Assembly: GCA_023382055.1 (NCBI GenBank)
Contig: JAMCQN010000177.1
Span: forward strand, 1-64,000
DNA from: Chloroflexota bacterium
Lineage (GTDB): Bacteria > Chloroflexota > Anaerolineae > J036 > Brachytrichaceae
Direction: 5' to 3'
Length of the DNA stretch: 64,000 nucleotides
Shown here: positions 4,275 to 28,187 of the stretch, in pieces
Numbering within the stretch: the first letter of the stretch is position 1
Layout of the letters: each line of letters begins with the position of its first letter
The notes under the pieces: generated by a model
What the model saw: the letters and a program-made list of their open reading frames with translations, nothing else
Database searches by the model: none
What the model was told of the DNA's origin: nothing
Program-made: the position numbers and the translations under genes

Positions 4275-5519
4275 CTACTGCGCGGGCAGTTCGGCCAGCG
4301 TTACCGTCAGTGTCAGCGTGCGTGTGCCGCGCACGACCTTCAGTTCGATCTTGTCGTCGGGCTTATGCGTGCTGAGCACGCGCGCCAGGCTCGATTCATC
4401 GACCAGGTTTTTACCGTCGGCTGCCGTAATGATGTCCTGCTGCTGCAGTCCGGCTTTGGATGCCGGGGAGTTGCTGACGACGCTCATCACCACGATACCG
4501 CTCTTCTGTGTCGTGCCCAGGCGGGACGCGATCATGGCGTTCAACGGCAGGTAGCGGATGCCCAGATACGTGTGGGTCACATGACCCGTAGCAACAAGCT
4601 GATCGGCAATCGGCCGCGCCGCCGCCAGCGAGATCGCGAAGCCGATGCCCTGCGACGGTACGCCGGGCTCAGCCTGGCCTGCCACGAGGGTGTTGATGCC
4701 GATCACCTGACCAGACAGGTTCACCAACGGCCCACCCGAGTTGCCGGGGTTAATCGGGGCGCTGGTCTGGATGGCGTCGAACAGGAAGGGGGCGTTACCG
4801 TTTTGATCGGCGGGTTCCTGCACGGTGCGGCCTACGGCGCTGACGACGCCCGCTGTCACTGTTGGACCGCCGGGGAGCGCCAGGGCGTTGCCGATTGCGA
4901 CGACCCAGTCGCCGACCTGAAGCTGGTTAGAGTCGCCCAACTGCGCCACTGGCAGATTGGCGCCGCTGATCTGCAATACAGCCAGGTCGGTCTGCGGATC
5001 GGCGCCGACGACTTTGGCCGGGAATGACCGCCCATCGGGCAGGGATACCAGCAGCTTATCTGCGCCCGCGATGACGTGGTTGTTGGTCAGGATGTGTCCC
5101 TGCGCATCATAAATCACGCCGGAGCCGACGCCTGCGGGAACGCTGGTGCTCTGGTTAAACTGGTCGATTTGCACCTGTTGATTGGTGATCTGGACGACGG
5201 CAGGCTTGACCCGTGCCGCCACGTCGCGCACCGCCGTCGCAAAATTGCTGCTGGTAATAGGCGCCGACGATGTCGTCGGGCTGGTCTGCTGCGCGGCGTC
5301 AATGGTATGTGAAACTACTGGCGCGAGTGAGCTGGTCGTCTGATTCGCCGCCTGTAACGCCGTCTTGGTAACGGCATTACTCGCCGCCGCCGCCGTATTG
5401 ATCGCCGTGCTTGATTGCACCGCGCTTAAGCCATTGAACTGGCAACCCGCTATCAGCAATACCATTGATGTTGCCGCGAGAAGCTGTACGCCAACGCGGC
5501 CTGTGTGTTTCAAGTTCAT
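4275..5519 (-). CDS. DegP/HtrA-type serine protease, lipoprotein with PDZ domain
   Basis: 414 residues. An S1C trypsin-like protease for envelope protein quality control. The signal peptide ends in lipobox LIAGC (Cys26), so it is predicted to be lipid-anchored outside the membrane. An Ala/Ser/Thr-rich linker of about 65 residues precedes the protease domain. Catalytic triad: His148 (TNNHVI), Asp178 (QTDLAVLQI) and Ser261 (GNSGGP). A single C-terminal PDZ domain (about 310-410) contains YLGIRYLPL and SPASKAGLQQQDII. The start at 5519 is set by GGAGG followed by TAATC and ATG; the longer frame from 5543 lacks such a site. An intrinsic terminator follows at once, so the gene is probably monocistronic. 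Confidence 0.95.
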   Translation of the reverse strand: MNLKHTGRVGVQLLAATSMVLLIAGCQFNGLSAVQSSTAINTAAAASNAVTKTALQAANQTTSSLAPVVSHTIDAAQQTSPTTSSAPITSSNFATAVRDVAARVKPAVVQITNQQVQIDQFNQSTSVPAGVGSGVIYDAQGHILTNNHVIAGADKLLVSLPDGRSFPAKVVGADPQTDLAVLQISGANLPVAQLGDSNQLQVGDWVVAIGNALALPGGPTVTAGVVSAVGRTVQEPADQNGNAPFLFDAIQTSAPINPGNSGGPLVNLSGQVIGINTLVAGQAEPGVPSQGIGFAISLAAARPIADQLVATGHVTHTYLGIRYLPLNAMIASRLGTTQKSGIVVMSVVSNSPASKAGLQQQDIITAADGKNLVDESSLARVLSTHKPDDKIELKVVRGTRTLTLTVTLAELPAQ

Positions 5520-16519: not shown

Positions 16520-16870
16520 TTACATGTTGCGCGCAGCGTATCCCGGGCCTTCCGTGTAGAACTTTGCGTTGGGTTCTGTAGCGGTGGTCAAGTCCAGCAC
16601 CTCGCCGCCCTTGGAGGCGTAGCGCGCTCCGCCGAATGGAACAACTTCCTGGCCGGGTTTGGTGGTGTATTCGCTGGGGACTTCACCTTCGGGGAAGATA
16701 GCCTCGTAGGGGCATTCGGGAACGCAGGCGCCGCAGTCGATGCAAGTGGCGGGATCGATGAAGAACCACGGCCATTGATCCTCAGGCTTGCCTTCGACAA
16801 TACATTCGACAGGGCATACATCAACGCACGCGCCATCGCGAAGGCAAAGTTGAGTAATTACGTGAGTCAT
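16520..16870 (-). CDS. Seven- or eight-iron type ferredoxin
   Basis: 116 residues. A small soluble electron carrier with two iron-sulfur sites. The first motif has Cys at 9, 15, 19 and 23 (CLRDGACVDVCPVECI). The second is the classical CxxCxxCxxxCP at 43, 46, 49 and 53 (CIDCGACVPECP). Spacing of the first motif and the C-terminal extension of about 60 residues resemble Azotobacter-type 7Fe ferredoxins. Redox partners are unknown. It is a single gene flanked by a putative terminator. AGGAGCT precedes the ATG with good spacing. Confidence 0.93.
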   Translation of the reverse strand: MTHVITQLCLRDGACVDVCPVECIVEGKPEDQWPWFFIDPATCIDCGACVPECPYEAIFPEGEVPSEYTTKPGQEVVPFGGARYASKGGEVLDLTTATEPNAKFYTEGPGYAARNM

Positions 16871-17076
16871 CTGTTAAGCTCCTTAGTTTCTGTATAGTGA
16901 TTAGCGACTCCAACAATGAAGTTCACTACCGGTAATTTTACTGATTTATACACTAACACCCTATGATTGTCTAGCAAATGCGGAAGAGTGCGTGGTACAG
17001 AAGCAGGAGATTGCGCGCCGCGAATGGGTTGCGGGGTGTACTGGAACGACCGGCGGCGCAGGTGGGAACACACCGC

Positions 17077-17113
17077 AAAAAACAGCCAGGCGAATATCCA
17101 TCACCTGGCCGTT
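17077..17113 (-). terminator. Intrinsic terminator of the superoxide dismutase gene
   Basis: A 10-bp stem (arms 17081-17090 and 17104-17113, one G-T pair, 13-nt loop) is followed on the minus strand by six T (17082-17077). It lies 27 bases after the superoxide dismutase stop. Confidence 0.85.
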
Positions 17114-17139
17114 TATGCAGACGGCTGGCTGTTAGCTGA

Positions 17140-17751
17140 TTACCGGCTGGCTGCTGCAAACTGCTTGACGACATCCGCCCAGTTGATCACATTCCAGATG
17201 GCCTTCAAGTAGTCCGCACGGCGGTTCTGGTAGTTCAGATAATAAGCATGTTCCCACACATCCACACCGAGCAATGGCTTCAGGCCGTCGCTTAGCGGAT
17301 TGTCCTGGTTGGCGGTCGAGGTAATGGCCAGTTTGCCCGAGCCATCCACGACCAGCCATGCCCAGCCGCTGCCGAAGCGACCCAGGCCGGCTTTGTTGAA
17401 CTGCTCCTGGAAGTTTGCCAAAGAGCCAAACGTTGAGTTCAGCGCATCCAGCAACGCGCCGGAAGGCTGGCTGCCGCCGGGGACCAGTTGCAGCCAGAAG
17501 CGGCTGTGGTTCAGGTGGCCGCCGCCATTATTGCGCACAGCCGTGCGAATGGCTTCAGGCACTGTGCTCAGGTTCTTGATCAGATCCTCGATGCTTTTGC
17601 TCTGCAGATCGGGGTGATTTGCCAGAGCGGTGTTCAGGTTGGCAACGTAAGTGCCGTGGTGTTTATCGTGATGGATTTCCATCGTGCGGGCATCGATATA
17701 CGGTTCGAGCGCGCCAAATGCATACGGTAAGGGAGCCATTTCAAACGCCAT
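17140..17751 (-). CDS. Iron/manganese superoxide dismutase
   Basis: 203 residues, the usual family length. Converts superoxide to oxygen and hydrogen peroxide. The metal ligands are recognisable: His27 in [13 protein letters not shown], His in HLNHSRFW, and Asp and His in [21 protein letters not shown] and the DVWEHAYY segment do not by themselves separate the iron from the manganese form. No signal peptide, so cytoplasmic. The start at 17751 is favoured because AAGGAG lies nine bases upstream; ATG 17757 is only three bases from that site. A TATAAT box stands upstream and an intrinsic terminator downstream, so it is transcribed alone. Confidence 0.96.
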
Positions 17752-17792
17752 TTCCATTTTCTCCTTGTAAACAGTAAATTCCAAACTACGCT

Positions 17793-20806: not shown

Positions 20807-20829
20807 AGAAGTCAGACATCGACTTTTAT
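20807..20829. repeat. Half-copy of the GAAGTCAGACATC palindrome family
   Basis: The 13-mer GAAGTCAGACATC (20808-20820) is identical to the right arm of the palindrome at 30426-30456. Here it pairs imperfectly with GACTTTT just downstream (about 7 bp). It lies in the gap between the glycosyltransferase and rex stop codons and may end transcription. Confidence 0.55.
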
Positions 20830-21452
20830 TCGAGGTAGTAAGTCATCTTTTGCAGATGGAGTACTGGGTCTATGTATTCCACATGCACGTAGTCGGGGAC
20901 GCTCAAGTTGATCGGCGCGTAGTTCAGGATGCCGCGGATGCCGCTGTCAACCAGCAGATCGGCGACCTGCTGGGCATATTGCGCTGGAACAGCGATCATG
21001 GCATGCTGGACATGGTTCTCGGAAACATACGAGGCGATCTCGCTATTGTCCTGCACGATGAAGCTGCCGACTTTTGCCCCAACTTTGTTGGGGTCGTTGT
21101 CGAAAAAGGCGACCACGCGAAAACCCCGCTGTGCGAAGCCGGAGTAACTGGCGACGGCGCTGCCGATATTGCCCGAACCCACGACAATCAGTTGCCACTC
21201 GCGGTCCAGGTGCAGGATCTGGCGCAGCTCCTCATACAGGCTGGCAACCGAATAACCGGTGCCTTGCTTGCCGAACTCGCCAAAGTGTGACAAATCCTTG
21301 CGAATCTGCGCAGAGCTGATGCCCAGCCATTCGGCAAGTTCATGCGAGGACGTGTAGAGTTTTCCACCTTCATGCATGGTGGAGAGTGCGCGTAAATAAA
21401 TCGGTAGACGTCCAACCACGATATCTGGAACGTCGTTTTGTGTATTGCGCAT
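20826..21452 (-). CDS. rex: Redox-sensing transcriptional repressor Rex
   Basis: 208 residues, full family length. Rex represses fermentation and respiration genes when the NADH/NAD+ ratio is low and leaves DNA when it binds NADH. The winged-helix domain covers about 10-80 (LPIYLRALSTM, TSSHELAEWLGISSAQIRKDLSHFGEFGKQGTGY, with the conserved recognition helix). The Rossmann domain starts with VGSGNIGSA (91-99), and the C-terminal domain-swap helix is present. A TGTAAT box seven bases before the ATG suggests a leaderless or nearly leaderless mRNA. No convincing Rex operator was found in the window, so its local targets are unclear. Confidence 0.97.
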   Translation of the reverse strand: MRNTQNDVPDIVVGRLPIYLRALSTMHEGGKLYTSSHELAEWLGISSAQIRKDLSHFGEFGKQGTGYSVASLYEELRQILHLDREWQLIVVGSGNIGSAVASYSGFAQRGFRVVAFFDNDPNKVGAKVGSFIVQDNSEIASYVSENHVQHAMIAVPAQYAQQVADLLVDSGIRGILNYAPINLSVPDYVHVEYIDPVLHLQKMTYYLE

Positions 21453-21644
21453 GCTCGCTATTACATTTCAAACCATAAAAGGCGCACACCAGGCTAAACG
21501 GCTCACATCAGAAGCCCGGTCTATGCCACTGATGATTTCCTGCCACTTTTCACATGGTAGCACAAGCCCGGCGCTGCTGCAAACATCTGAGCCGCAAAGC
21601 TATAATCGGGCACACGCAGGCATCCAGATAGCAGGTAATAGACC

Positions 21645-23291
21645 ATGAAAACAAGCCGCCGCTCCACAGCCTTTGTCCGCCCCTCTGTAGTCTTCTCTCC
21701 CAACCTGGTTGATGGCATTAACATGATGGCGAATGCGGTCAAGCCGACGTTAGGGCCGTTGCCACGGACAGTGGGCATTGAGCGCATTGATCGGGCGCGC
21801 ATGCCCGAATTGTTGGACGATGCCGGGATTATCGCGCGCCGGATCATCCAGATTGAAGATCCAACGGCCAATGTTGGCGCGATGATGCTGCGCCACGGCA
21901 TGTGGCGCATGCACGAAAGGCTGGGCGATGGCGCTGCCACGATGGCCATTCTGACGCAGGCTATCGTGCAGCATGCTCTAAAAGGCGTTGCGGCAGGAAT
22001 GCATCCCATGCAGTTGCGGCGCGGCATAGAGAAGGGCGCGAATGCGGCAGTCGAGGCATTGCGAGAGGGTGCGCGCCCATTGCCGCCTGGCAAAGCAGGT
22101 CGCGAGATGCTTACATCGCTGGCGTATTCACTTTCTGCTGACAAGGAACTCATGGATGCCATCGTGGCCATAGTGTTCAACATAGGCGGCGACGGCGCTG
22201 TGGAATTGGTGGTAAACGAGCGCCGCACGGTTGATTACGAATTCGTCGAAGGCGCGGTGGGGAACTCCGGGTGGATTTCGGCGGTTTATGCCACAGACAA
22301 GGCGAAGACTACTGCAAGGCTGGAGGATGCGGCGGTCATCATACTCGCGGGCGCAATTGAGACCGCTCAGCAGGCTATTCAAGGGATTGAAAAACTGGCT
22401 GCGCTGCAGATACGGCGTGTCGCTTTGATCGTGAACGGGGTCAGCGAAGAAGCGCAACACGTCTTTACTCATGTGCACCTGCGGGGCGAGATGCGGTTTA
22501 TCCTGATCAAGTCGCCGCATATAGACGCAGAACAGTTGATTGCGCTGCACGATATCAGCGCCTTAACCAGCGCGCGCGTGCTTTTCGACGTCGGCGAATT
22601 CATGACCCTTAAGCCCGCAGACGTAGGGTTTGCGCGGCGTATCTGGTCGACCTCAATCAAATCCGGCATCATCGGTGGCAGGCGTGAAGGCAATACATTG
22701 CGCGGCAGAATTCAACTGGTGCGTGATGCAATTGCCGGGTTTAACGACAAGAAGGAGTGGGACCAGTTGGACAAATTGCGTTGGCGGCTGGCGCAACTCA
22801 CCGGTGGAATCGCGGTTTTGCAGGTGGGCGCTTTGACAAGTTCACTGGCCGATACACGTAAGGAACACGCGCAACGGCTGATCCATGTGCTTCAGTCGGC
22901 GGTCGGCAGTGGGGTTGTGGCCGGAGGCGGCGCCGCTTTGCTCGGGTGTGCGTTGGCTGTTGAGCAAGCGGCCAGGCGATGCGTGCAGGGTGATGAGCAA
23001 TATGGCGCCCGCTGCATAGCACAGGCATTGAGCGCCCCTTTGGCGGTGCTGGCGTATAACGCCGGTTATGAGCCTGCGCCGACGCTTTCCAGGGTCAAGC
23101 GCGCTAAAGCCGGGCATGGCTTCGATGTGCGCTCTGGTCAGGTAGTTGATATGTGGGACGCGGGTATTGTCGACTCGCTGCCCGTGGTCGAGAGAGCGAT
23201 TCAGACGGCTGCCAGTGTGGGAGCGATGACAATCACCACCACAGCCGTGGTGCATCAGCGCAAGAGTTACCCCGGACCTGTTGTGCCGTAG
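21645..23291 (+). CDS. Divergent GroEL-like chaperonin paralogue
   Basis: 548 residues, GroEL length, and alignable end to end: NMMANAVKPTLGP, RLGDGAATMAILTQAI, KGVAAGMHPMQLRRGIEKG, GVVAGGGAALLG and ASVGAMTITTTAVV match equatorial and intermediate landmarks. It departs where ATP is bound and cleaved: GDGTTT is GDGAAT (94-99), TLGPKGR is TLGPLPR, and the position of E. coli GroEL Asp398 is Arg411 by my alignment. Asp59 may keep the Asp52 role. The Gly/Met-rich tail is missing. No groES is adjacent. It is therefore probably a specialised chaperonin paralogue rather than the housekeeping GroEL. It is divergent from rex across a 192-base gap. Confidence 0.88.
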   Translation: MKTSRRSTAFVRPSVVFSPNLVDGINMMANAVKPTLGPLPRTVGIERIDRARMPELLDDAGIIARRIIQIEDPTANVGAMMLRHGMWRMHERLGDGAATMAILTQAIVQHALKGVAAGMHPMQLRRGIEKGANAAVEALREGARPLPPGKAGREMLTSLAYSLSADKELMDAIVAIVFNIGGDGAVELVVNERRTVDYEFVEGAVGNSGWISAVYATDKAKTTARLEDAAVIILAGAIETAQQAIQGIEKLAALQIRRVALIVNGVSEEAQHVFTHVHLRGEMRFILIKSPHIDAEQLIALHDISALTSARVLFDVGEFMTLKPADVGFARRIWSTSIKSGIIGGRREGNTLRGRIQLVRDAIAGFNDKKEWDQLDKLRWRLAQLTGGIAVLQVGALTSSLADTRKEHAQRLIHVLQSAVGSGVVAGGGAALLGCALAVEQAARRCVQGDEQYGARCIAQALSAPLAVLAYNAGYEPAPTLSRVKRAKAGHGFDVRSGQVVDMWDAGIVDSLPVVERAIQTAASVGAMTITTTAVVHQRKSYPGPVVP

Positions 23292-23433: not shown

Positions 23434-24873
23434 ATGATACATAAATCCTTTAACCGACGCAAGTTCCTAAAAGCAGCCTTTTTAGGGACCGCTGCGACAG
23501 CTTTGGCTGCGTGTGCTCCACAGACAGTGACAGTCGAAGTGACTCGTCAAGTTGAAAAGCAGGTTGAGGTAACCAAGGAAGTCGTCAAAGAAGTCGAAAA
23601 GAATGTGGAAGTCACTAAGGAAGTGATTAAAGAAGTCGCCGTTACGGCCGTCCCGGTGGAACTGAAAGGCGAACTGACTGTCTGGGGCCATGCCGATCAC
23701 CCCCTCGATAATGCCGGCCAGGCCTTTATGGCCAAAAATCCTGGCGTTAAATTTACCTTCGTCGGTGAAGATGGATGGGACAAGAAGGTAGAAGCAGCGC
23801 TTGCGGCTGGCAGTGGTTTGCCTGATATGGTGTGGTACGAGGCCGATGCGACACAGGTAGCAGCACGCCGTGGCATCCTGTTAGACGTAACGGAAATGGT
23901 CAAAAAGCACGAGAGTGAACTAGTACCATCCAAGCTTGCCGAAGCCCGTTACCAGGGTAAGTACTACGGTATGCCTGGCGATATCACACCTAATAACTAC
24001 TGGTATCGTACAGACATCACTGAAAAAGCAGGCGCCAAAGATATCAATCCCGATATTAAGTACGACGAGTTCCTGCAATTATCGAAGGATGTTAAGGCCA
24101 AGACCGGCGCCAGTATGTACGTTATGAACTCCAACTTCACTGGCCAGGGAATTCTGCCATTCCTGGTTCCGCACTACTCACTGGGCGGTAATGTCTCTGA
24201 TGAAAGCGGAGAGAATATCGTCATCGACAATGAGATCGGTCAGCAGGCAATGAATTATGCCAAACAGGCCTGGGATTTGAAAGCCGGTCTGGATGCAGAC
24301 TGGTTCTCACCGCCTTACTGGGGCGCCATAAAGGAAGGTAAACTGGGTGGTACCTGGTCTCCGCCCTGGATGCGCGGTTTCTTCGAGACTGAAGTCACCT
24401 CGCCTGAGAGAGGCCAGGGAAAGTGGCGGAACATGCTGGTGCCGGCCTACCCGGGCGGTAAAGCGCGCTGCAATGTATGGGGAGGCGCAACGCTGTGTGG
24501 ATTTAAGACAGTCAAGGATCCAGCGTTGGTGATGGCCTACATGGAATATACTTTCGCCTCGATCGAAGGCGCAACAGTCACTGGCAACTGGGGCATCATA
24601 CCCCCATATCTCCCGTGGCTGAAAGGTTATTTTAAGCTGACCAAGGCATCGCTTTTCGAGCCGACCTGGGACTGGACCGGGCAGATTGTGAAAGCGCTGG
24701 ATCAGATGCGCACAGACTTTTACCGATTGCCCGCCTATGGCGTCATGATGGGCAGTCTGGATAAGTTCGGACTGCCGATGCTCAAGGGCGAGAAACCCAT
24801 CAAGGATGGCATGCAGGAGTGGGGTGACTACATCCGCGCAGAGAACAAGAAGCTGCTCGAAGCGATCAAGTAA
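23434..24873 (+). CDS. ABC transporter sugar-binding lipoprotein
   Basis: 479 residues. Extracytoplasmic solute-binding protein of the carbohydrate (MalE/UgpB-like) family. The N-terminus has a twin-arginine-like RRKFLK (8-13) and a lipobox LAAC (Cys27), so it may be exported folded and lipid-anchored. Residues 31-70 form a Val/Glu/Lys repeat linker (VEVTKEVVKEV and variants) that is a hallmark of Chloroflexota binding proteins. The binding domain follows (LTVWGHADHPLDNAGQAF, GLPDMVWYEAD). It is the first gene of an importer operon with two permeases and faces a mannonate-dehydratase-like gene, which suggests uronate or related sugars; this is inference. Confidence 0.95.
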   Translation: MIHKSFNRRKFLKAAFLGTAATALAACAPQTVTVEVTRQVEKQVEVTKEVVKEVEKNVEVTKEVIKEVAVTAVPVELKGELTVWGHADHPLDNAGQAFMAKNPGVKFTFVGEDGWDKKVEAALAAGSGLPDMVWYEADATQVAARRGILLDVTEMVKKHESELVPSKLAEARYQGKYYGMPGDITPNNYWYRTDITEKAGAKDINPDIKYDEFLQLSKDVKAKTGASMYVMNSNFTGQGILPFLVPHYSLGGNVSDESGENIVIDNEIGQQAMNYAKQAWDLKAGLDADWFSPPYWGAIKEGKLGGTWSPPWMRGFFETEVTSPERGQGKWRNMLVPAYPGGKARCNVWGGATLCGFKTVKDPALVMAYMEYTFASIEGATVTGNWGIIPPYLPWLKGYFKLTKASLFEPTWDWTGQIVKALDQMRTDFYRLPAYGVMMGSLDKFGLPMLKGEKPIKDGMQEWGDYIRAENKKLLEAIK

Positions 24874-24916: not shown

Positions 24917-24972
24917 AACCGCCAAGGCGCTAGGTATTCGTCGAACACTGACGCTCTTGGCGGTTTGTTTTT
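24917..24972 (+). terminator. Intra-operon terminator/attenuator
   Basis: Ten-bp perfect arms AACCGCCAAG (24917-24926) and CTTGGCGGTT (24956-24965), extendable by GCG pairing inside, are followed by TTGTTTTT. It lies between the binding-protein gene and the first permease. It probably lets only part of the transcripts continue, keeping binding protein in excess. Confidence 0.75.
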
Positions 24973-24986
24973 GGCGAGTGATCCAA

Positions 24987-25952
24987 ATGGCGAAAAGCGT
25001 CCAGGCATCTTCATCATTAAAAAACCCGATCATAAGGCCTAAGCGTAATTTGCGTCGTCTATTAGCTGAAATGTGGCGGCATCGGGTCGATTACCTTTTC
25101 ATTTCACCATTTTTTATACTGTTCCTCATTTTCGGCCTCTATCCATTGCTGTTTGGCATCCAGTTGAGCTTCTCACGCTGGCAGCCAGGTAAAGATATGG
25201 TCTTTATTGGCCTGGACAATTACAAGACTTTACTCTTAACCGACCCGGAACTAAAGCAGGCGCTGCTCAACACCATCGTCATGCTGCTCTGGATTCTGCC
25301 GACAGGACTGGGGGGCGCGCTTGTGCTCGCCGTCATGCTGAATGCACGCAAACTGGTGGGGCGCAGCTTTTTTCGCACACTTTTCTTCCTGCCATTTGTC
25401 ACCTCGCAGGTCATTGTCTCATTCGTGTTCCAGTCATTGTTGGATAAGGATTATGGTTGGGTGAACCTGCTTATGGGCCTCGTGGGTATCCCACCAATTC
25501 CATGGTTGACGCAGACGTTCTGGGCTCAGATATCAATTACCCTCCTGTTGCACTGGATGGGCATGGGCACCAACATACTGATCTTTTTAGGTGCACTGCA
25601 AGCCATCGACCGGGAGTTATATGAGGCGGCGGAGATTGATGGCGCCACTGCTACACAGCAGTTCTTCAATGTAACCTTTCCGATGATCCGTCCGGTGATG
25701 CTCTTTATGATTATCACAGCCACGATTGGCTTGATGAACCTGTACGCCCCGGTGGTTTTGTTGACTAATGGCGGTCCCGGCGGCACGACGTTGACGCTGT
25801 TCATGCGCATGATTCAACTTATGACCAGTATCCGTTATGGTGAGGGCGCTGGGTTTGGATTCATCATCGGCGGCATTATTCTGCTAATCACACTAGTGCA
25901 GATGAAGTTCCTGAGCAGTTGGTGGACGGTCGAAGGCAAGTTAAAGCAGTAA
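24987..25952 (+). CDS. Sugar ABC transporter permease (MalF/UgpA-like)
   Basis: 321 residues with six predicted membrane helices. The cytoplasmic EAA loop that contacts the ATPase is clear: EAAEIDGATATQQFFNVTFP, beginning near residue 213. The N-terminus is a basic cytoplasmic stretch. I take ATG 24987; the frame starts upstream at 24957 inside the attenuator stem, which makes that start unlikely. It partners the second permease 69 bases downstream and the binding protein upstream. No ATPase gene is present in the operon. Confidence 0.93.
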   Translation: MAKSVQASSSLKNPIIRPKRNLRRLLAEMWRHRVDYLFISPFFILFLIFGLYPLLFGIQLSFSRWQPGKDMVFIGLDNYKTLLLTDPELKQALLNTIVMLLWILPTGLGGALVLAVMLNARKLVGRSFFRTLFFLPFVTSQVIVSFVFQSLLDKDYGWVNLLMGLVGIPPIPWLTQTFWAQISITLLLHWMGMGTNILIFLGALQAIDRELYEAAEIDGATATQQFFNVTFPMIRPVMLFMIITATIGLMNLYAPVVLLTNGGPGGTTLTLFMRMIQLMTSIRYGEGAGFGFIIGGIILLITLVQMKFLSSWWTVEGKLKQ

Positions 25953-26021
25953 TAATGGTTTAGAGCATCTGCATGTCTAAACAGGATGCTACGGATAGCG
26001 CTAAAACCGAAAGAGGTAAGT

Positions 26022-26951
26022 ATGGCGACGACGATATCGGTTCAGCCAAAGACAAAACAGCTAGTGACTCGAAAGAGCTGGAATATACGTCGAAGGCTTG
26101 GGTATATTCTTCTGTACATATTCCTGATACTCCTCTCTGTCGGCTTCTTCTTCCCTTTCTACCAGATGGCCATTGGGTCTCTGATGCCCAAAGAAGAGTT
26201 ATTTAAACTCTACCCACAATTATGGCCACCGGGCGGGCCAACGCTGCGGGCGTATCTACTGCTATTGCACATTGAGCCGCCGACAAATATGGCTTACCTG
26301 GCCAATTTCCATATTTTACGTTACGTCGGAAACTCTTTGCTCATGGCCACTGTAGCAGTTCTTATACAGGTGTTCTTCAACACCATGGCTGGCTACGTAT
26401 TTGCCAAGCGCAGCTTCCCGTTCAAAAATCAACTATTCAGCATGATCCTGGTGACATTGCTATTGCCCACTGCAATCAACTTTGTGCCATTTTTTATTTT
26501 GATTGGCCGACTAGGCTGGATGAATACTTATTTACCGTTCTGGATTCCTGGCGCCGCCACGGCATTCGGTATTTTCCTGATGCGGCAGTTCATAGTAGCA
26601 ACCATCCCGGATGAGATCATCGACTCGGCTACCATCGACGGGGCATCGCAGTTTCAGATTCTCACGCGCCTGGTCATGCCTATCATGACCGGTGGGATGG
26701 TGGTATTGGCGATTCTTAGCTTCGTTGGCGTTTACAATGAATTCGTGATGTCGTCACTCATTCTGACAAATCCCGACACCCGTACGGTACAGGTAGCATT
26801 GGCGAACTTTTTGAAATCCAACATCCGTGCGCCGAACTATGATTTGTTGTTTGCTGGAAGTGTGATGGCCACGATTCCCCTGTTAGTCGTATTCTTCGTC
26901 TTCCAGCGCCAGATCATGGAAGGTGTAATGTCAGGCGCGATAAAAGGCTGA
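26022..26951 (+). CDS. Sugar ABC transporter permease (MalG/UgpE-like)
   Basis: 309 residues, six membrane helices. The EAA-type loop reads DSATIDGASQFQILTRLVMP; the usual Glu-Ala-Ala is Ser-Ala-Thr here, which is common in MalG-type partners. The start at 26022 has GAGGT five bases upstream; the frame continues to 25986 without a good site. It is the last gene of the importer operon and is closed by a bidirectional terminator. The ATPase must come from elsewhere in the genome, as in MsmX/MalK-type shared ATPases; this is inference. Confidence 0.93.
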   Translation: MATTISVQPKTKQLVTRKSWNIRRRLGYILLYIFLILLSVGFFFPFYQMAIGSLMPKEELFKLYPQLWPPGGPTLRAYLLLLHIEPPTNMAYLANFHILRYVGNSLLMATVAVLIQVFFNTMAGYVFAKRSFPFKNQLFSMILVTLLLPTAINFVPFFILIGRLGWMNTYLPFWIPGAATAFGIFLMRQFIVATIPDEIIDSATIDGASQFQILTRLVMPIMTGGMVVLAILSFVGVYNEFVMSSLILTNPDTRTVQVALANFLKSNIRAPNYDLLFAGSVMATIPLLVVFFVFQRQIMEGVMSGAIKG

Positions 26952-27062: not shown

Positions 27063-28052
27063 CTATTCGTTGACTGTGTTCACCGCATGCAGCATTGCCG
27101 AGATATAACCCGTGGCGAAGGCGCGCCCGCGATGTCCCCACGGCGAGTCGTTGACCATGTGCGGCACATGGTCGTCGATCAGCAGGCCGTGAAAACCGAC
27201 TCGCTTCAGTGTGCGCATCACGGTGAAGATGTTCATATTCCCTTCGCCGATGAAACACTCGGTGAAGTTCTCGGCGCTGCCGCGCACGTCGCGCAAATGC
27301 ACGTAGAAAATGCGCCCGCGCGTCCCGAAGTACTCGATGGCCTCCAGTACTCCGGCCCCGGCGCGCATTTCCGACCAGCAGCCGTGACAGAAATCCAGGC
27401 CGTGCATCTTGCTGGGGTGCGTGTCCATGGCGCGCTTGAACCCCTCGAAACCGTGGAAGAGACGAGCGATGCCGCCCAGCGCAGGCACGGGTGGGTCGTC
27501 CGGATGCAGTGCCATGCGCACGTTATACTCATCACATACCGGCAACATGCGCTCAAGATACCAGTCGTAGTTAGCCCACATCTCTGCTTCGTTATAGATG
27601 CGACTGTGGGTCAAAGGCGCATCTTTCACCAGCTCCATCTCAAACGCATTGGAGATGGCGCCGCCGCGCACGGGGCGCTCCCACGAGGTGCGCCACACGC
27701 TGTTGGGCATCCAGTGGTAACCCAGAATGGGAATCCCGGCCCGTCCCATATTGCGGACTGTCTCCTGCATGTTCTCCAGTTGTTGCTCGCGGCCTTCTGC
27801 GCCCAGCATGATCTTGTCATAGAAACGCGTGGGCACATTCTCCAGCGCGAAAAGGCGCAAGCCGTTGTCCTCGGCCCGGGTGCGCAGGCGCAACAGGTCT
27901 TTGAACTCCCAGCGTTCCTCGCCGGGCAGCTTGGCGGTATTCAACAGCACGTCTTCAGCGCCGCACTGCTTGGCAAACGCGATCTGTTCATCGGTCAATT
28001 CACTAAACTGGCCGACGCCGACGCGCATCGGCAAAGCGTCTAAGTTAAGCAT
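27063..28052 (-). CDS. Mannonate dehydratase-like enzyme (UxuA family)
   Basis: 329 residues. TIM-barrel enzyme of the UxuA type, which dehydrates D-mannonate to 2-keto-3-deoxygluconate. Family motifs visible are MALHPDDPPVP, GLDFCHGCWSEM, FYVHLRDVRG, FTECFIGEGNMNIF and LIDDHVPHM, which together supply the metal-binding His, Cys and Asp residues. The protein is on the short side for the family. The start at 28052 follows AGGAGG by five bases; the frame runs on to 28157 without such a site and would overlap the divergent kinase gene region. It is adjacent to the sugar importer, so uptake and breakdown of uronate-derived sugars may be linked. Confidence 0.88.
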   Translation of the reverse strand: MLNLDALPMRVGVGQFSELTDEQIAFAKQCGAEDVLLNTAKLPGEERWEFKDLLRLRTRAEDNGLRLFALENVPTRFYDKIMLGAEGREQQLENMQETVRNMGRAGIPILGYHWMPNSVWRTSWERPVRGGAISNAFEMELVKDAPLTHSRIYNEAEMWANYDWYLERMLPVCDEYNVRMALHPDDPPVPALGGIARLFHGFEGFKRAMDTHPSKMHGLDFCHGCWSEMRAGAGVLEAIEYFGTRGRIFYVHLRDVRGSAENFTECFIGEGNMNIFTVMRTLKRVGFHGLLIDDHVPHMVNDSPWGHRGRAFATGYISAMLHAVNTVNE

Positions 28053-28187
28053 ACATACCTCCTGGAACGATAGCAGCCTTAAGAGCAAATATCCAAAATG
28101 CCTTCGAGTTAGTTTATACGATACACGAGTCTGCGCCAAGTGGGTGGGATAATCCAATCGCGCTACGTTTTACGCATGAGGTGTTGT

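Follow-up and report, generated by a model that had tools for sequence, protein, structure and literature searches.

The open reading frame at positions 21645..23291 of the window, a stretch of 64,000 nucleotides from a Chloroflexota bacterium, encodes a full-length member of the group I chaperonin superfamily that belongs to a divergent family of Chloroflexota paralogs. We infer that it is, in all likelihood, a non-cycling chaperonin dedicated to a client or partner. The best overall explanation, to which we give a probability of about one half, would be an ATP-binding, poorly hydrolyzing and GroES-independent dedicated ring of Chloroflexota, with a β-propeller protein as its main client or partner. 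Group I chaperonins are mostly thought of in terms of an ATP-hydrolysis timer and of GroES. In several lineages of this one phylum, the hydrolysis residue is replaced, mostly by Arg, in proteins that selection maintains beside a normal GroEL and that are tied to one small protein family; they provide a natural setting in which to ask what a chaperonin is capable of without turnover.

The Cpn60_TCP1 domain of Pfam covers residues 29-538 of the product (E 8.7e-47, 160 bits against a cut-off of 34.3), and the closest solved structure is the Thermus Cpn60 (E 3.9e-72, residues 21-539), which is also the top Foldseek match (4v4o, E 6e-38). The similarity to GroEL over the whole length, reported in the first-pass annotation, is therefore confirmed. 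The TIGR02348 GroEL equivalog model matches the protein from end to end at 286 bits, below its cut-off of 582, and the protein stays under every GroEL equivalog cut-off of the NCBIfam models. Compared with canonical GroEL/Cpn60, it has the same fold, length and domain order, can be aligned end to end and keeps D87, G32-P33 and D495 (numbering of E. coli GroEL, with Met as 1), but it differs by D398R, GDGAAT, TLGPLPR and a helix I that is polar at 259/264, and its gene presents neither a GGM tail, nor a groES partner, nor a CIRCE element. The chlamydial GroEL2/GroEL3 are likewise diverged paralogs retained alongside a normal GroEL (PMC1892554), although the window protein reaches only 92 and 60 bits with their models NF038369 and NF038370, against cut-offs of 600. 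Because the single-chain model of the window chaperonin is only moderate (pLDDT 76, pTM 0.62), the proposal that it would form a ring is based on homology.

Table 1. Position of the chaperonin gene, its altered motifs and its neighbors in the window
Feature	Coordinates	Strand	Remarks
rex (redox repressor), divergently oriented neighbor	20826..21452	-	Put_DNA-bind_N + CoA_binding
Divergent group I chaperonin (Cpn60/GroEL-like), 548 aa	21645..23291	+	ATG start; profile, structure, alignment and tree evidence
TLGPLPR, residues 35-41 (GroEL TLGPKGR, 30-36)	21747..21767	+	G32/P33 kept
GDGAAT, residues 94-99 (GroEL GDGTTT, 86-91)	21924..21941	+	Asp95 = D87 and Thr99 = T91 kept
Apical helix I: L259 to Q271, V263 to T275, V264 to H276	22455..22472	+	GroES/substrate contact helix made polar
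Arg411 codon CGG, equivalent of GroEL Asp398	22875..22877	+	Arg in 18/18 nearest-relative rows and 16/16 of the window clade
Sugar ABC solute-binding lipoprotein (SBP_bac_1)	23434..24873	+	Next gene downstream of the chaperonin, 142 nt gap
ABC transporter permease (BPD_transp_1)	24957..25952	+	Domain match
ABC transporter permease (BPD_transp_1)	25986..26951	+	Domain match
D-mannonate dehydratase (UxuA), carbohydrate/uronate catabolic context	27063..28157	-	Domain match

The substitutions that had been read by hand, GDGTTT to GDGAAT and TLGPKGR to TLGPLPR, were recovered in an alignment with E. coli GroEL and relatives, as was every other motif change listed there. The Asp398 equivalent is Arg411, exactly the residue named earlier, and a 100-sequence alignment, which could have restored the catalytic Asp, does not do so. 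The GGM tail is indeed absent, as had been noted, and a short tail ending in Pro (...KSYPGPVVP) replaces it. In addition, K51-D52-G53 of GroEL corresponds to D58-D59-A60, N479-A480-A481 to D494-V495-R496, and the inter-subunit salt-bridge positions R197/E386 to S/S, while D495 is kept as D510. When the nearest divergent relatives were aligned (18 sequences), Arg411, Asp95 (D87), Thr99 (T91), Gly37-Pro38 and Asp510 (D495) proved invariant, and all 16 members of the window clade have Arg at 398 and D87. Considering the whole divergent set, D398 is gone in 66/69 paralogs (L076 and L078 retain the Asp, and one row is gapped there), D87 is kept in 68/69, D52 is mostly kept, and nearly every member retains D87, G88, T91, G32-P33 and D495. 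The canonical copies have D398 in 32 of their 33 rows; the exception, in genome G056, reads Gly and is taken to be a sequencing error because of a nearby ambiguous base in this MAG. One divergent copy, L070 (G023:C1:2277412-2278968), has Asn at 87 (GNGGST) and Glu at 398, and a propeller of ~600 aa is located next door in its clade.

Between sister genomes, omega was mostly 0.10-0.25 (Nei-Gojobori). Given these values and the residues fixed clade-wide, the window chaperonin is under selection, and the divergent family as a whole is under purifying selection. The idea of a decaying paralog on its way to a pseudogene could draw on the long terminal branch of the window chaperonin (0.71) and on its several altered motif residues, but the 548-aa frame is intact, the same substitutions are shared by the clade and omega is low, so this reading was rejected and we give it almost no weight. 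Similarly, the earlier view of a degraded ATPase site, in which ATP binding would be lost with GDGTTT, does not agree with the conservation of the nucleotide-site residues listed above and with the omega values. The other part of that view, a non-cycling chaperonin, stands as an interpretation: it is consistent with the uniform Arg at 398 in the window clade, with the loss of D398 in most of the divergent set and with E. coli GroEL D398A, whose ATP binding is normal and whose ATPase falls to 3%, and which can still encapsulate and fold proteins (PMC3326522). As this mutant still encapsulates with GroES, the loss of D398 alone is no proof of a holdase. Judging from its residues, the window protein probably binds ATP, hydrolyzes it poorly and does without GroES; the ring would bind ATP, turn it over no faster than a few per cent of the normal rate and work without GroES, and its role would be that of a holdase or assembly chamber dedicated to a limited set of clients.

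In a 60-sequence tree, all the divergent copies form one clade apart from the canonical Chloroflexota GroEL (SH-aLRT 100, stem 0.73); long branches were flagged inside this clade, and its inner joins are less certain. The radiation of these chaperonins most likely derives from an old groEL duplication, maintained beside normal groESL. The divergent clade may be limited to Chloroflexota, since its matches (Candidatus Roseilinea, Thermoflexales, Anaerolineales, Caldilineaceae, Thermomicrobium and other Chloroflexi bins) are all assigned to this phylum by their titles apart from a few labeled just "bacterium"; the carrier scan used patterns derived from the nearest relatives, which more distant members would escape. 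From the 32 genomes of the same class outside the family, nine have a divergent copy, 19 have only classifiable canonical copies, and the remaining four have fragmentary or no chaperonin matches. A phage origin of the window chaperonin was rejected, as the best phage-collection chaperonins among the matches listed are ~31% identical or less. A plasmid search for a copy from a cultured Thermomicrobium retrieved only ordinary GroELs, at ~33% or less.

The normal groESL expected elsewhere in the genome was found on contig C194, where an ordinary groES-groEL pair, with D398, GDGTTT and the GGM tail, is preceded by a CIRCE-like element (0.01 expected). Control of the window chaperonin by HrcA/CIRCE was looked for and rejected, because the element is absent from the window and present at this canonical groES. 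A second, free-standing groES is located on contig C55 (~4376-4621, L090), close to glutaredoxin-like and thioredoxin-reductase-like frames and without an adjacent groEL. A second divergent chaperonin, of 540 aa with GDGTAT and Arg at 398, is encoded on contig C45 (33239-34840, minus strand; compare L052 5980-7602 and L144 13219-14841), in a sugar utilization locus with genes for a solute-binding protein, permeases, an SDR and enolase-superfamily-like proteins.

The relationship with GroES can be approached through the apical domain. Leu occupies positions 259 and 264 in the canonical Chloroflexota copies, where the 16 members of the window clade all have Lys/Arg/Gln and Gln/His, respectively, and the hydrophobic sites of helices H and I amount to 8.0 of 8 in canonical copies versus a mean of 5.0 in this clade. 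In GroEL, V264 contacts the GroES mobile loop (PMC3514286). A chaperonin that is dedicated to a client and still cycles, slowly, with the housekeeping GroES, other residues supplying the hydrolysis, would be compatible with the retention of D87 and (mostly) D52, with the two GroES genes of the genome, one of them free-standing, and with the persistence of GroES binding in E. coli D398A (PMC3326522). Nevertheless, the charged or polar residues at 259 and 264 throughout the window clade, one of them at the contact with the mobile loop (PMC3514286), and the lack of a groES beside the chaperonin at any divergent locus examined make this an unlikely, though serious, reading. Alternatively, the divergent subunit could mix into canonical GroEL rings and tune them rather than build its own ring, as the canonical GroEL is present in the same genome and chloroplast chaperonins combine alpha and beta subunits in hetero-oligomers (PMC5904260). 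We find this doubtful, since the window protein is only 32% identical to the canonical copy and has lost the R197/E386 salt-bridge pair, and since genome G041 encodes three divergent chaperonins, every one accompanied by a propeller of its own, which suggests separate machines.

One recurrent neighbor of the divergent chaperonins is a propeller gene. Neighbor clustering recovered, directly downstream and on the same strand in ~27 divergent loci, a gene encoding an Asp-box β-propeller (BNR, Sortilin-Vps10, YCF48-like) of ~280-340 or ~600 aa. The gap between the two genes is mostly -16 to 60 nt, the outliers (L038, L076, L115, and L116) being due to a broken copy, the choice of start codon or real spacing, and the pairing spans Anaerolineae and is also found in Thermomicrobium. 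Under longest-ORF calling, antisense ORFs masked genes in L043, L087, L088, and L133, which were recovered by an HMM search. The N-termini of the propellers look cytoplasmic by eye, with no obvious signal peptide. AlphaFold2 predicts for one of them seven repeated groups of blade-like strands (pLDDT 84, pTM 0.85), suggesting a seven-bladed propeller, and the solved folds nearest to this model are the GH74 and YCF48 propellers. These YCF48/HCF136 and GH74 proteins have the Asp-box repeats in common with the partner protein, but the latter is only ~15-20% identical to them, has no signal peptide apparent by eye and is tied to chaperonin genes.

Co-occurrence and tree comparisons point to a shared history of the two genes. 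An adjacent propeller is present in all nine class genomes with a divergent chaperonin, while none of the 19 without it has a propeller at the level of this family, their best matches being weaker and mostly inside long BNR proteins (Fisher p 1.4e-7; five of the nine carrier genomes fed the propeller search model, and the remaining four alone give p 1.1e-4). Over 22 linked pairs, distances among the chaperonins are correlated with those among the propellers (Mantel r 0.77, p 1e-4). The propellers from the genomes of the window clade make their own clade in the propeller tree, and in genome G007 they follow the type of their chaperonin rather than grouping by genome. Together, these comparisons indicate that the chaperonin and propeller families are inherited together. 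Some divergent sub-clades show no linked propeller (the K398 group; L066-L075; L120/L125/L126/L132). In Roseilinea-like loci (L098, 7727-8509; L099, L101, and L103), a gene for a type I phosphodiesterase/nucleotide pyrophosphatase follows the divergent chaperonin, and in several of them the same strand carries the propeller after another ~8 kb. The propeller near the chaperonin of L038 (G019, contig C1, 1118006-1118812) is broken by three in-frame stops, and an intact copy is present on C2.

In the loci that bear the pair, the propeller could thus be the principal client or partner of the chaperonin. The operon-borne GroEL of soluble di-iron monooxygenase clusters, such as the groEL of smoABCD, is likewise a groEL paralog in a metabolic cluster, with a presumed role in folding a single client (PMC11057499). 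Such GroEL-like proteins serving their monooxygenase would be a model for the propeller as a client, although the divergent chaperonins come from a different phylum and have different neighbors. As an analogy only, the eukaryotic CCT folds WD40 propellers and is thus a chaperonin serving β-propeller proteins (PMC9772883). CCT differs in being a group II chaperonin with an active ATPase. A bolder idea is that the seven-bladed propeller replaces GroES as a cap or adaptor in a new two-component chamber. Chaperonin and propeller would then be one machine: ATP, bound but not turned over, would close the chamber, the propeller would cap it or act as its adaptor, and the whole would serve carbohydrate-uptake systems of Chloroflexota. 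This would account for the tight gene pairing and co-inheritance, the loss of the GroES-contact hydrophobics and the seven predicted blades; nevertheless, a single propeller is far smaller than the GroES heptamer and is one chain, not seven, and some propellers have ~600 aa, so that both the cap and the joint machine appear quite improbable. Returning to the propeller as client or partner, the two-gene operon can be expressed in E. coli, making this a tractable question.

The window gene itself encodes a chaperonin without Asp398 but has no propeller directly downstream; the next gene encodes the ABC solute-binding protein. The one strong propeller of the family in this genome (C74, 10130-11029, minus strand, L143; Asp-box, 299 aa) has sugar ABC permease genes ~0.7 kb upstream of it. 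The propeller tree places it among copies whose genomes mostly carry C45-type chaperonins, apart from the partners of the window clade, so it was rejected as the partner of the window gene and is probably, from this placement, the partner of the C45 paralog. No propeller of the window's own clade was found in this draft genome, which is 83% complete, and its absence could reflect loss, relocation or a gap in the assembly. Under the preferred reading of a dedicated ring, the linked propeller of this genome would have been lost or moved, and the chaperonin now adjoins an ABC importer.

Sugar transporters are the other recurrent neighbors. The order SBP-permease-permease-chaperonin(-propeller) is found in L059, L065, L068, L071, L073, L075, and L089, the order permease-permease-SBP-chaperonin-propeller in L129 and L131, and the order chaperonin-SBP-permease-permease in the window. 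An ABC permease lies within ~6 kb in 13/33 lineages by hand count, versus ~9% expected (nominal p 4e-6), a rough figure, given that the lineages were delimited by eye and the flanks differ in length; the expectation is the share of bases of the window genome within 6 kb of such a permease and hence one genome's background rate. On this rough count, the divergent loci are disproportionately located beside carbohydrate ABC importers. Genes for GH10, GH2, and UxuA are also found near divergent loci, and in L071 (5602-6777), L121, and L123 the divergent chaperonin gene is followed or overlapped by a gene for a GH10 protein (an assignment tested in L071) whose N-terminus is Tat/lipoprotein-like. 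The pairing with the propeller and the proximity of sugar importers suggest a specialized chaperone system; in the open literature, to which our search was confined, neither the clade nor the pair was found described. These loci point to unexplained biology in the sugar uptake of an abundant and poorly cultured phylum.

In contrast to these recurrent neighbors, rex, which had been pointed out as the divergent neighbor of the chaperonin and is real, is peculiar to the window genome among the genomes examined. The proposal derived from it, that of a redox-linked scaffold chaperonin under Rex control, had this adjacency in its favor. Its prediction of the same gene next to rex in relatives was searched for at ~50 divergent loci, with flanks of mostly ~4-6 kb, and no rex was found; the spacer (21453-21644) contains no Rex-box-like site, and the neighbors that recur are the β-propeller and the sugar ABC genes. 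Redox-linked expression is thus unsupported, and we regard Rex control as very improbable. A ferredoxin-like gene and an Fe/Mn superoxide dismutase gene are located at 16520-17784 of the window, a few kb from rex, in a possible oxidative-stress neighborhood.
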